This document shows positions 3,976 to 55,205 of a stretch of 64,000 nt of DNA, piece after piece. Both the position numbers and the translations under genes were made by a program. Each line of letters begins with the position of its first letter. Positions within the stretch are counted from its first letter, which is position 1. Source of the DNA: Zoogloea sp. (GTDB lineage Bacteria; Pseudomonadota; Gammaproteobacteria; Burkholderiales; Rhodocyclaceae). The stretch is from assembly GCA_023150095.1 (NCBI GenBank), contig JAKLLO010000002.1:21699-85698 (forward strand), written 5' to 3'. The notes beneath the pieces are model-generated. The model did no database searches and was not told the DNA's origin. It was given only the letters and a program-made list of their open reading frames with translations.

Positions 3976-4269
3976 TTTAGAGCAAAAAAAATACCCGGTC
4001 AAGTTGGGTCCAGAGCAAATCTCTTTTCGCCACAAGCACTTAGGAATCGGAGGGGGTCTTGTAAGAAATCCGCTTACAAATCAACGTCAGTAGCGTGGAT
4101 TGCAAAAGTTGAGGATGAATTCACAACTCCTGCGCCCGCCCGAAAGGCAGCCGAGATGCTTTCAGGCACGAAAGCGCAAAAGAATGTTTCGCACCAAGGC
4201 CTGGCGCGAAATAAGTCGCGAATGTGGAGACAAGTGGGAGAGAAACGAAAAAACGAGGGGCGAAGTGGG

Positions 4270-4661
4270 GAAGTCCGCCGATAAGCCGGGTTCTGTCGAG
4301 CGGGCCGGTCCGAAAACCTGCCCGCCGGGCAATCATTCCTCTGGTCGACGCGTTACCGCGCCGCTCTAGCAGCCTACCCGGGGACTCAGCGAGCAGCCTC
4401 AACGTCCCCCTATTTGGCCTTGCCCCGGATGGGGTTTACCGTGCCGTCCGTGTCACCACGTCCGCGGTGGGCTCTTACCCCACCGTTTCACCCTTACCTG
4501 ATCCGCCCGGAGGCGGCCATCGGCGGTCTGCTCTCTGTTGCACTTTCCGTCGCTTTGGCCCGAAGGCGTATGGCGCCCGGCCGTTAGCCGGCATCCTGCT
4601 CTGCGGGGCCCGGACTTTCCTCGATGCGCGAACGCACCGCGATTGCCTGGCGAACTTCCCG
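4270..4661 (-). ncRNA. rnpB: RNase P RNA, bacterial class A
   Basis: Minus strand contains GAGGAAAGTCCGGGC...GCAGGATGCCGGCTAACGGCCGGGC and 3' AGAACCCGGCTTATCGGC; TATACT -10-like box just upstream. Confidence 0.95.
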
Positions 4662-9556: not shown

Positions 9557-9829
9557 GCACGAAAGTCAGACATGCGATCTCGCAAGTTTTACTTGGGACG
9601 TTCCAGCTAATACTTGCGCGCTTCCAGGTTGGATTTGGGAGGTTCCAGCCCGGACTTGGGCCATCCCAAGTCGGACATTCGTTTTTTCAAAGCCAGGCTT
9701 CGGATGGCCCAAGTCTGACTTACGCGCGCCCAGGCAAAACCTGCAAAGCCCCAAGTCCGATTTAGAACCTTTCAAGTATTTGTTGAGCGATTTCAAGTCG
9801 GCGCTTCGCAGGCCAAGCGCCGACATCGA
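9557..9829. repeat. Degenerate 21-bp-period tandem array (about 13 units), near-palindromic units
   Basis: Successive units such as catcccaagtcggacattcgt, atggcccaagtctgacttacg, aagccccaagtccgatttaga; core CAAGTC-N-GACTTG. Confidence 0.85.
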
Positions 9830-9831
9830 CC

Positions 9832-11091
9832 TCAGCGCGGCACCTGATCCCGCGGGTAGAGCACCCACATCTCGCCCTTCTGGCGCATCCGGCCGGCCTG
9901 GGCGCCGGCTTCGGCGCCGAAGCCCCAATAAAAGTCACCGCGCACGCCGCCCTTGATCGCGGTGCCGGTGTCCTGGGCCAACATCAGGCGGCGCAGGGGC
10001 TGGGTGCTGTTGGGCTGGGTGGTGGACAGGAACACCGGCGCCCCCAGCGGAATGCTGCGCGGGTCCACCGCCAGGCTGCGCCCGTCGGTGAGGGGCTGGC
10101 CCAGGGCGCCCACCGGCCCGCCGCCGTGGTTGGCCACCTCGCGGAAGAACACGTAGCTCGGGTTGGCGTTGAGCATCTCCTGCAGGCGGCCGGGGTTGGC
10201 CCGCGCCCAGTTCTTGATGCCGTCCATCGAGGCTTGATCGATGCGCAGCTCGCCCTTGTCGGCCAGCCAGCGGCCGATGGACTGATAGGGATGGCCGTTG
10301 GTGTCGGCGTAGGCGATGCGCACGATGTTGCCATCGGGCAGCTTCACCCGGCCCGAGCCCTGCACCTGCAGGAAGAACAGATCCACCGCGTCGTCGGCAT
10401 ACAGGATGGCCTTGGCGGCGAACTTGTCGGCCATCCGCGCCACCTCGGCGCGGGAGTAATAGGGCACCACCTTCTTGCCCACCAGCCGGCCGCGCAGGCG
10501 CTGGCCCTTGAGGTCGGGCAACACCTCGCCCAGATCGATGGACAGCAGGTCGTCCGGCACGCCCAGCACCGGCCAGTTGTAGGCCCCGCCCTTGTGGCGG
10601 CTGCCGTTGATGAGGGGCTCGTAGTAGCCGGTGATGAGGCCTTCCTTGGTGCCGTCCGGGTTGCTCACCCGCCACGGCGTGAAGCGCGACTCGAAGAAGC
10701 TGCGCACCGCCGAGGCACCCGGCCGCTCGCCCATCCCGCGGGCCGCCTCGCACACCGACGCCCACACCGCCTGCCGGCCAACGGCCCGGCACGAGGCCAG
10801 GAAGGCCGGCCAGGCCTCGTCGATGGCATCGCCACTCCAGCCCGGCAGATCGGCCCACCCGGCCGGCTGCAGCGGGCGCGCCAGGGGCTGGGGCGCCGGC
10901 GCGCCGCCGGTGGCCGCCGGTGGCGTGACGGCAGGGGGCGGGGTGGGATGCGCGGGCTGGACCACCGGCGCAGACGGCCCGCTCACCGGACGCGGCGCGC
11001 CGGCACACGCCGCCAGCAGCAGCGCGGCGCAGGTGGCAGAAAGACGGGACAAGGCAGGAGAAGCGGGAATGGAGCGGAAGGGGTGGAACAT
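9832..11091 (-). CDS. mltA: Membrane-bound lytic murein transglycosylase A
   Basis: Lipobox LLLAACAG; YYEPLINGSRHKGGAYNWPV, VQGSGRVKLPDG, VFFRE, AQDTGTAIKG, DFYWGFG motifs. Confidence 0.93.
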   Translation of the reverse strand: MFHPFRSIPASPALSRLSATCAALLLAACAGAPRPVSGPSAPVVQPAHPTPPPAVTPPAATGGAPAPQPLARPLQPAGWADLPGWSGDAIDEAWPAFLASCRAVGRQAVWASVCEAARGMGERPGASAVRSFFESRFTPWRVSNPDGTKEGLITGYYEPLINGSRHKGGAYNWPVLGVPDDLLSIDLGEVLPDLKGQRLRGRLVGKKVVPYYSRAEVARMADKFAAKAILYADDAVDLFFLQVQGSGRVKLPDGNIVRIAYADTNGHPYQSIGRWLADKGELRIDQASMDGIKNWARANPGRLQEMLNANPSYVFFREVANHGGGPVGALGQPLTDGRSLAVDPRSIPLGAPVFLSTTQPNSTQPLRRLMLAQDTGTAIKGGVRGDFYWGFGAEAGAQAGRMRQKGEMWVLYPRDQVPR

Positions 11092-11176
11092 GGATGGGGT
11101 ACACTCGCGGCTGGCAATCTTTACCCGCCCGAGTATAACCACCGGCCCGCCTCGCCGGGCCCGCAAAGGACGCGCC

Positions 11177-11287
11177 ATGTGGCTGATTGGCCTCGAACTC
11201 GGCCTTGCCGCCGTGCTGCTCGCCATCGTTGCCCTGGCCCTGCGCAGCCCGCACAAGAACGACACGGATGACACCCCCGATGACTGA
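11177..11287 (+). CDS. Putative 36-aa single-TM small protein
   Basis: MWLIGLELGLAAVLLAIVALALRSPHKNDTDDTPDD; overlaps the start of the downstream ATPase gene. Confidence 0.5.
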   Translation: MWLIGLELGLAAVLLAIVALALRSPHKNDTDDTPDD

Positions 11288-51944: not shown

Positions 51945-52835
51945 ATGAACCCCATTGAACGCATCCTCCCCCGCGCCGCCGACCTGGGCGAAGGCATGAT
52001 CGTCCGCCGCGCCCTGCCCACCCGCCAGCGTCGCATGGTGGGTGCCTGGTGTTTTCTCGACCACGTCGGGCCGGTGGATTTCGCCCCCGGCGGCGGCATG
52101 CACGTGGGCGCCCATCCCCACACCTGCCTGCAGACCTTCACCTGGCTGATCGACGGCGAGGTGCTGCACCGGGACAGCCTGGGCCACGAACAATGGATCC
52201 GCCCCGGCCAGGTCAACCTGATGACCGCCGGCCACGGCATCGTCCACACCGAAGACAGCGCCCCCGACGCCCGTCGGCTCCACGCCGCCCAGCTGTGGAT
52301 CGCCCTGCCGCCCGAGCTGGCCGACTGCCCGCCGGCCTTCGAGCATTACCCGGACCTGCCCCGCTGGAACGACGCCGGCTGCACCCTCACCCTGCTGGCC
52401 GGGCGCTTCGGCGGCCGCGAATCCCCCGCGCGCATCCACACCCCGCTGGTGGGCATGGATCTCCTCGCCAGCCAGGATGCGCAGCTCGCCCTGCCCCTCG
52501 ACCCCACCTTCGAATACGGCCTGCTGCCGCTGGAAGGTGGCATGGACATCGGCGGCCAGCACTTCGCCACCGACGAATTCGCCTACCTGCCGCCGGGCCG
52601 CGAGCGGATCACCCTCGACCTCACCGCCGGCAGCCGCATCCTGCTGGTGGGCGGCGAGCCCTTCGGCGAACCGGTGACCATGTGGTGGAATTTCGTCGGC
52701 CACGACAAGGCCGCCATTGCCCAGGCCCAGCGGGATTGGGAAGGCGGTGGCGAGGTGGGCAGCGCCCGCTTCGGGCCGGTGAAAGGAGGCGAGGGCCGGC
52801 GCCTCGTCGCGCCGCCCCTGCCCTGGTCGGTCTAG
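51945..52835 (+). CDS. Pirin family protein
   Basis: FLDHVGPVDFAPGGGMHVGAHPHTCLQTFTWLIDGEVLHRDSLGHEQWIRPGQVNLMTAGHGIVHTE. Confidence 0.93.
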   Translation: MNPIERILPRAADLGEGMIVRRALPTRQRRMVGAWCFLDHVGPVDFAPGGGMHVGAHPHTCLQTFTWLIDGEVLHRDSLGHEQWIRPGQVNLMTAGHGIVHTEDSAPDARRLHAAQLWIALPPELADCPPAFEHYPDLPRWNDAGCTLTLLAGRFGGRESPARIHTPLVGMDLLASQDAQLALPLDPTFEYGLLPLEGGMDIGGQHFATDEFAYLPPGRERITLDLTAGSRILLVGGEPFGEPVTMWWNFVGHDKAAIAQAQRDWEGGGEVGSARFGPVKGGEGRRLVAPPLPWSV

Positions 52836-53865
52836 CGTTCGGGCTGGTCCAGCCCGCCGGCGGCCTGCCAGGCCTCGTAGCCCCCGGCCAGCGCCCGCAC
52901 CGACAGATAGCCATCACCCAGCAGGCGCCGCGCCGCCTGGATCGCCCCGGCGTCCTCGGGGCAGGCGCACAGGGTGACGATGGGCGCGTCCTTCGCCGCA
53001 CCGACAGATAGCCATCACCCAGCAGGCGCCGCGCCGCCTGGATCGCCCCGGCGTCCTCGGGGCAGGCGCACAGGGTGACGATGGGCGCGTCCTTCGGCCA
53101 GTCGCCTACAGCATCCGCCAGCCGGTCGTGCTCGGCCGGCCGCGCGCCGGGGATCGGCCCCAGCTCGGCCACCATCGAGGCACCGCGCAGATCGAGGATC
53201 AACGGGCTCACCCCGGCGTCGATCTGCGCCAGCAGATCAGCCGGCGTCACCATCGGCACCTGCAGGCGGCGGAAACGGTATTTCTGCCACAGCTTCCAGC
53301 CCAGCCACACCGCCGCCAGCCCCAGCGCCACGCCCACCGCGCGGCCCGCGTTGGCCTCCAGCCCGTCGATCACCGCCTGCACCGTGTCCTTCATCAGCCA
53401 GCCGGCCCCCAGGGCCAGCCCGGCCCACAGGCCCGCACCCACCGCCGCCGCCAGCAGGAAGCCCGTGCGCGCCATGCGCAGCGCCTCGGCAATCGGCGGC
53501 GCAACGGTCGAAAAGCCCGGCACGAACTTCGCCACCACCAGCGACGACAGCCCCCAGCGCACAAAGCGCGCCTCCGTCTGGCTCACGCAGGAGGCCGGGT
53601 TGATCGACAACCGGCACAGCCCGGCCAGCACCCGGTAGCCAAAGCGCCGCCCCGCGGCATACCAGATCGCATCCGCAATCACCGAGGCGAGGATCGCTGC
53701 CGCCAGCACCCTGCCCAGCGCCCACGGGCTGGCCGCCAGGCTGCCGGCCACCAGCAGCGTCGGCACCGCCGGCACCGGCAGGCCGATCTGCTGGAGCAGC
53801 ACGTTCATGAAGACGAGGGCGACCGCATCGTGTTCGAGGGTCTGGCGGAGCTGGGCGATGTCCAT
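52832..53865 (-). pseudogene. DedA-family membrane protein with C-terminal rhodanese domain, frameshifted by a 101-bp duplication
   Basis: MDIAQLRQTLEHDAVALVFMNVLLQQIGLPVPAVPTLL...; rhodanese domain breaks at the duplication; deleting one copy restores YLSVRALAGGYEAWQAAGGLDQPER*. If the read is genuine the ORF continues to 52621. Confidence 0.85.
52895..53096. repeat. Perfect 101-bp tandem duplication (52895-52995 and 52996-53096)
   Basis: ccgcaccgacagatagccatcaccc...gggcgcgtccttcg occurs twice with no mismatch. Confidence 0.97.
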
Positions 53866-53927
53866 GGCCCAAGCATCGCACGTAGGGGCAGGCTGCCGCA
53901 GCTACGGAAAACCCGCGCCCCGAAGCT

Positions 53928-54305
53928 GGCTCGGGTGAAGGCGGAACCCGCTCACGGGCGGGCGGAAGCAGTTCGCCGCCGGGCGGAGCAGGTTCAAGTC
54001 AGACATGAACCTGCGGAACGTAAACCTGAACACGTTCAACCCGCACTTGAACCCGTTCAAGTCGAAGATGAAGCAGTTCAACCCGAGGCAGAACGCGTCT
54101 CGCCCGGACTTGAACGGGTTCAACTTTTAGCGGAACCGGTTCAGGTAAAAGATGAAGAACTTCAACGCCGACTTGAACCGGATCAACCCGAAGATGAACA
54201 AGTTCATCTCGAACCTGAACCGGTTTCCCTCCGACCTGAACATGTTCATCTCCGGGCCGAGCGCACTCCCCTTGAAGGGAGCCCGGTTCAACCCTGAGAT
54301 GCTCG
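53928..54305. repeat. Degenerate 21-bp tandem array, about 18 units, near-palindromic
   Basis: Units include ggttcaagtcagacatgaacc, cgttcaacccgcacttgaacc, acttcaacgccgacttgaacc; strict 21-bp phase. Confidence 0.93.
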
Positions 54306-55205
54306 CGGCCCCTTGCGACCCACCAGCACCACGCCCGACACCACCAGCGCCCCGCCCAGAATCTGGAACAGCCCGATGGGTTCGGCGAGGATCAGCCAGC
54401 CCAGGAAGAGCGTCACCACCGGGCCGAGGGTGCCGATCAGCGACACCGGCCCGGCCCCCAGGCGACGGATCGCCTCCGACACCATCCACACCGGCAGCAC
54501 CGTGGAGAACAGCGCCATCGCCACCGCCAGCCCCATCACCGGCGCCGGCTGCACCACCAGCAGGCCCAGGGGCCGGGTGGCGGCAAAGTGGCCAAGGCAC
54601 AGCACACAGGCGATGGCGCTGGCCCAGGCCGTCACCCGCGCCGCCCCCAGGCGCACCACCGCCTGGCCGTTGCCCATCAGGTAGAGCGCATACGACACCG
54701 CGCTGCCGAACACCAGCGCGCCGCCGATCCACACATCCCTGGCGCTGCCGGCGATGTGGAGATCATGGGCCACCGCCAGCGCGATGCCCGCGTAGCACAG
54801 CCCGATGCAGGCCAGCGCCCGGCGGGTGATCGGCTTGCCCAGGAACAACGCCGAGAACACCACCACCAGGGTGGGGTAAGCAAACAGGATCAGCCGCTCC
54901 AGCGCCGCCGAGATGTACTGCAGCCCGAGGAAATCCAGATAGCTGGCCATGTAGTAGCCGGTAAAGCCCAGCCCGGCCATCAAGGCCAGATCGCGCCCCG
55001 ACAGCTTCGCATGCTGGCGCCGGCGGCCATCGGCAAAACCCAGCGCCAGAAAGAAGGGCAGCGACAAGCCCATGCGCAGGGCGAGCAGGGTCACGGCGTC
55101 GACGCCGTAGGGATAGGCCAGCTTGATGAGGATGGCCTTGAACGAGAAGCCCACCGCGCCAAGCACGGCGAACAGGAGCCCGAGACGATCGCCGGGGTGA
55201 TTCAT
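54288..55205 (-). CDS. EamA/DMT family transporter
   Basis: 10-TM; two EamA-like repeats (FKAILIKLAYPYGVDAVTLLALRM). Confidence 0.9.
   Translation of the reverse strand: MNHPGDRLGLLFAVLGAVGFSFKAILIKLAYPYGVDAVTLLALRMGLSLPFFLALGFADGRRRQHAKLSGRDLALMAGLGFTGYYMASYLDFLGLQYISAALERLILFAYPTLVVVFSALFLGKPITRRALACIGLCYAGIALAVAHDLHIAGSARDVWIGGALVFGSAVSYALYLMGNGQAVVRLGAARVTAWASAIACVLCLGHFAATRPLGLLVVQPAPVMGLAVAMALFSTVLPVWMVSEAIRRLGAGPVSLIGTLGPVVTLFLGWLILAEPIGLFQILGGALVVSGVVLVGRKGPRASQG

Follow-up and report, generated by a model that had tools for sequence, protein, structure and literature searches.

In the window, the whole 64-kb stretch of Zoogloea DNA that was analysed, array B is located between an EamA-family transporter gene and a DedA-rhodanese gene, as placed by an earlier sequence-only reading. 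Both genes are on the minus strand, with the 3' end of the EamA gene and the 5' end of the DedA gene facing the array. The window also contains array A, of the same family, between an MltA and an EAL-domain gene. The features are:

53928..54305, no strand assigned: array B, 18 in-phase 21-bp units with a consensus of about gGTTCAaSTCnGASnTGAACc
54288..55205, minus strand: EamA-family transporter gene (Pfam EamA, 4.7e-32, and ortholog alignment), with its TGA stop inside the EamA-proximal (first) unit
53906..53937, minus strand: terminator-like hairpin followed by a T run, ACCCGAGCCAGCTTCGGGGCGCGGGTTTTCC, just past array B in the reading direction of the EamA gene (own scan)
52621..53865, minus strand: DedA (VTT)-rhodanese gene (Pfam VTT), 5' end towards array B
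9558..9831, no strand assigned: array A, 13 units with one 22-bp step and the core CAAGTC-N-GACTTG, as in array B
9832..11274, minus strand: MltA murein transglycosylase gene, array A beginning at its stop codon
8515..9447, minus strand: EAL-domain gene, lying downstream of array A; its annotated start may be too long

The hairpin at 53906..53937 was listed by our own terminator scan and missed by a simpler one; a similar terminator-like hairpin is present beyond the EamA array of the sister species. The 3' part of the DedA-rhodanese gene contains an exact tandem duplication of 101 bp (100% identity, window positions 52895-53096). Because 101 is not a multiple of three, the open reading frame is shifted and ends in unrelated sequence; in the sister species it is 310 amino acids long. 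A recent mutation or an assembly artefact may account for the duplication.

Array B can be read from 53928 to 54305 as 18 consecutive 21-mers with zero indels, as had been claimed. Its lag-21 identity is 0.532, against 0.257 ± 0.024 (maximum 0.336) in 2000 dinucleotide-preserving shuffles (z 11.6), and a scan of the 64 kb in 210-bp windows, covering every lag from 10 to 69, gives its highest scores at array B, for lags 21, 42 and 63. The units are near-palindromic: in the frame first proposed the dyad score is 0.528, while shuffled sequences, taking the best of 21 frames, have a mean of 0.316 and a maximum of 0.376. Neither phase nor dyad symmetry is thus matched by shuffling. The four units quoted in the sequence-only reading are not neighbours, however, and those in between (for example at 54012 and 54096) are poorer; the first three units (53928-53990) are weak. 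At the other end, the array reaches 18 bp into the EamA open reading frame, the TGA stop (54288) being the TGA of a TTGAAC half-site. The units abut, with no unique spacers between repeats, confirming that this is not a CRISPR array. TRF recovers just two short pieces of array B.

The length of the unit (21 = 3 × 7), a G or C every third base (third-position pattern 0.78 versus 0.40), a W/S signal with a power of 19.5 at 3 bp and the presence of arrays that are open over their whole length would all suit a heptad repeat (FxSxLNx) coding for protein, intact or decayed, similar to the palindromic PARCEL coding elements. Many arrays, however, contain stops in both candidate frames, and dN/dS is between 0.62 and 0.93 across all six frames, with none standing out. 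From the stops and the flat dN/dS we take the arrays to be non-coding and reject a coding heptad repeat; a decayed repeat of a known protein family, which the sequence-only reading had named as a way of being wrong, is likewise not what is found, and we consider any coding origin scarcely credible. PARCELs are also palindromic tandem repeats spread among genomes, but they are 75-nt coding repeats, encoding 25-residue amphipathic repeats in real open reading frames (PMC2996958), while the Zoogloea arrays have no open, constrained frame. The 3-bp G/C rhythm spans the arrays although they do not code, and at columns 8 and 14 of the unit, over all arrays, C and G together make up 92% of the bases, in roughly even shares.

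The family was delimited with two models: R1, a three-unit covariance model using sequence alone, and R2, which is broader. In the genome that the window comes from, R1 gives 43 matches, nearly all within six arrays, so that array B is far from being the only locus found. Arrays are present in 15 of 24 Zoogloea genomes with R1 and in the same 15 with R2, the other nine having no detectable arrays. Nothing convincing was found outside Zoogloea in 200 genomes of the family and 399 of the order: one match (L069) is a coding coiled coil, another (L066) is a patch of about three units and the remainder are single chance palindromes. A search with a perfect palindrome returned 18 records, 10 of them from Zoogloea, with no array in any of the others. 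Viral contigs contained one isolated palindrome and no array, the plasmid search gave no match and no array matched Rfam above the gathering score. Unit reading was performed on 47 arrays from 14 genomes. More than half of these (27) have 11 to 13 units, the commonest length being 252 bp, and the steps between units are 21 bp, rarely 22, although small departures may be under-reported because the chaining favours 21-bp steps. The Zoogloea arrays are a genus-specific, dispersed, non-coding satellite family.

Orthologous loci reveal how the arrays arrived. In the sister species, Zoogloea sp. 1C4, arrays are present at the EamA, MltA and other loci; the EamA and MltA arrays are absent from all other examined species with enough downstream sequence. 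About 20 other Zoogloea MltA orthologs have no array, and the gap between MltA and the conserved sequence upstream of EAL is about 50 bp in about 20 species, while in the two sisters it contains an insert of about 300 bp with array A. A NUDIX gene is followed by an array in five species, beginning exactly at the stop codon, and for no fewer than three of these a strong terminator-like hairpin comes after the array. The site is empty in two further species, where the next features directly after the gene are its own terminator and a convergent sugar-phosphate mutase gene. The clean empty sites at MltA-EAL and NUDIX mean that whole arrays are lineage-specific insertions rather than ancient relics. 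Array B, previously taken for an old, conserved array, is a young insertion, which among the species examined is present in one sister species only.

Inserts provide the stop codon of the EamA gene and of a NUDIX gene. With gene calls from our own simple codon model, and counting ortholog sets that are not independent, 28 arrays lie between tandem genes, 9 between convergent and 4 between divergent ones, in agreement with the expectation that they recur near gene 3' ends. The neighbouring genes have no function in common. A somewhat unlikely reading of the precise placement is that of a mobile element, in which pre-formed arrays of about 12 units would be copied exactly to gene ends, with their own stop replacing that of the gene; they would be kept since a multi-hairpin 3' UTR is useful, and the half-sites on both strands would be homogenised by copying.

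Within the arrays, turnover is by whole units. Apart from a handful of cases, the indels between orthologous arrays are 21, 42, 63, 105 or 168 bp long. When array B is compared between the sister species, the EamA-proximal half is well conserved and the distal half has been replaced in phase. Higher-order repeats of 105 bp (five units) and 126 bp (six units) occur in two lineages; those at L027 730-1250, L141 4005-4466 and L147 4148-4567 represent recent block duplication. The mean substitution rate of the arrays is near that of four-fold sites in the neighbouring genes; the unit columns differ about five-fold, with a minimum of 0.04 in the TTCAA core and a maximum of 0.25 at the unit edges. 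In spite of this spread, the selection on spacing that had been suggested is inseparable from a process in which the repeats themselves cause whole units to be gained and lost.

A somewhat less likely alternative to the reading favoured below is a selfish or neutral minisatellite with no function for the host. Its arrays would be copied wherever intergenic space permits and would change in length through slippage and unequal exchange, and the palindrome would only reflect the copying process, template switching or hairpin-primed synthesis being examples. A low copy number, a patchy distribution, lineage-specific insertion, the higher-order repeats, fast turnover between the sisters and neighbour genes with no functional theme are all as expected from such an element, as is the finding, described below, that pairing is not maintained at the level of the unit. 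Harder to reconcile with it are the five-fold differences between unit columns, the phase kept in nearly all 47 arrays, the co-variation of the arms and the better folding of the native unit order than of permuted orders.

The sequence-only reading had proposed that each unit forms its own small hairpin or binds a dimer. The arms within a unit are no more complementary to each other than to those of other units (-0.17 ± 0.055 pairs), and the qualities of the two half-sites of a unit are slightly anti-correlated (-0.10, p 0.02), as are those of half-site pairs across unit boundaries. Both unit-level models, the hairpin and the dimer site, are rejected by these tests. The supposed signature of sites on one helical face is at most weak, the W/S power being 3.1 at 10.5 bp versus 19.5 at 3 bp. 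The same results bear on a DNA platform, in which a dimeric or polymerising DNA-binding protein would cover the array with its units on one face of the helix, for instance in nucleoid organisation, as Subirana and Messeguer propose for constant 20-21-nt repeats. A unit of two helical turns, the dyad consensus, the strict phase and a half-site, RASNTGAAS, that is conserved in both orientations would fit such a protein; the anti-correlated half-sites, the lack of a 10.5-bp composition signal, the drift of the motif between species and the nine array-free genomes do not, and we judge the platform unlikely.

At the level of the whole array, symmetry and folding are pronounced. As RNA, the arrays fold into far more stable structures than their dinucleotide shuffles, with a mean z of -7.5 for 45 arrays; array B (315 nt) reaches -156 kcal/mol and a z of -9.5. 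Compared with arm-swapped versions, native arrays have a small but significant advantage in folding (z -0.8, p 0.002), and the same holds against permuted ones (z -1.2, p 3e-7). The arms of the dyad co-vary between arrays, with a value of 0.185, whereas slid controls stay at or below 0.11; the permutation p of 0.0015 is uncorrected for relatedness. On 24 distinct loci the value is 0.195. In the NUDIX arrays of five species, 94% of the cells are paired and 9 of 88 pairs have changed on both sides, in a fold derived from the same five sequences; between 1 and 15 of 500 shuffles are as good (1 of 500 for pairing), slid controls are far lower, and unit exchange can imitate compensatory change here. 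In 23 of 34 arrays it is the sense strand that folds better, but shuffle correction lowers this to 18 of 34 (p 0.23); the asymmetry is explained by composition and is discarded as proof of RNA function. A terminator-like site follows the array in 14 of 34 cases, versus 22% of random windows, and precedes it in few. A likeness to the tRNA T-arm (GTTCAAGTC) was dismissed, as a tRNA-invariant base varies in the arrays.

We tentatively favour the reading that array B is a copy of the Zoogloea satellite in a gene tail, with a structured RNA tail on upstream mRNAs as its most likely role. Whole arrays of roughly 12 units enter the space between genes as insertions specific to a lineage, in many cases right at a stop codon and before the terminator of the gene. 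Afterwards 21-bp units are gained, lost and exchanged as wholes, and the two consensus half-sites change in step. The array would be transcribed as 3' UTR, and multi-unit hairpins would be the selected feature, presumably acting on mRNA 3' ends in a REP/BIME-like manner, by shielding them from 3' exonucleases or by insulation from the next gene. Counting against this 3' UTR model are within-unit pairing that is no better than between-unit pairing, the strand asymmetry lost on shuffle correction, the figures for terminator-like sites given above, including the few that precede an array, and the four arrays between divergent genes.

The arrays share several features with the REP/BIME elements themselves (GTAG and CGTC families; PMC3733652, PMC2817692): both are palindromic and extragenic with potential RNA hairpins, and both occur chiefly beside gene 3' ends and less often between divergent genes. 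The Zoogloea arrays are also clustered, as are the REPs of Thauera (PMC3733652). They differ in having no spacers, a fixed 21-bp period and a handful of loci instead of hundreds. The consensus columns do not end in GTAG or CGTC, the units carry no GTAG tag, and a pattern search of the window found no GTAG before GGTTCAAGT. A RAYT is not consistently present either: Y1_Tnp (PF01797) has matches in 8 of the 15 genomes with arrays and in 2 of the 9 without, and the seven array-bearing genomes in which it was not found include several that are near complete. The missing tag and spacers, the few loci and the patchy Y1 transposases exclude membership of REP/BIME, and movement of the arrays by a RAYT transposase is accordingly very improbable.

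Dispersed non-coding satellite families have been described in Leptospira interrogans and Methanocella conradii and are said to be rare in prokaryotes (PMC6749651). They too consist of related non-coding arrays at several genomic sites, but with repeats longer than 30 nt, whereas the Zoogloea unit is 21 bp, palindromic and strongly diverged. The class that fits, described by Subirana and Messeguer 2021 (PMC8161180, which analyses Bacillus and cites J Bacteriol 2020), is that of constant-length, species-specific, non-coding bacterial tandem repeats of 20-21 nt and unknown function, for which these authors propose a nucleoid protein polymer or small RNAs. As in those repeats, the Zoogloea unit is constant at 21 nt across loci (47 arrays, with chaining that favours 21), is not protein-coding by stops and dN/dS, occurs at several loci per genome and has a genus-specific sequence with a short conserved motif. 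Unlike them, the Zoogloea family has a whole-unit dyad and strongly diverged units; its arrays contain about 12 units, and both empty sites and orthologous arrays are documented for it. Zoogloea is unmentioned in the accessible parts of the repeat papers searched for the name; the family is new in the sources searched, though it may be listed in the 2020 catalogue behind PMC8161180.

The constant 20-21-nt repeats, the role of which is unknown, have so far been without a tractable case. Zoogloea offers dozens of arrays, some of them in cultured relatives (Zoogloea ramigera and Zoogloea sp. 1C4), and with orthologous copies and empty sites available, insertion, turnover and the effect on the upstream mRNA become directly measurable.

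Several Zoogloea arrays adjoin transposase genes (L129 4843-5256, L164 2980-4176, L138 2764-3888 and L133 4450-4620) of the IS256/Mutator, IS110, DDE_Tnp_1 and probably IS4 families, as if the arrays or their sites attract insertions. Related arrays (L026 and L125; L131, L138, L149 and L153) often keep the gene on one side and not on the other, so they may mark recombination breakpoints, general synteny being uncontrolled in this comparison. Elsewhere in the window, a bacterial RNase P class A RNA gene (Rfam RF00010) is located at positions 4266-4658.
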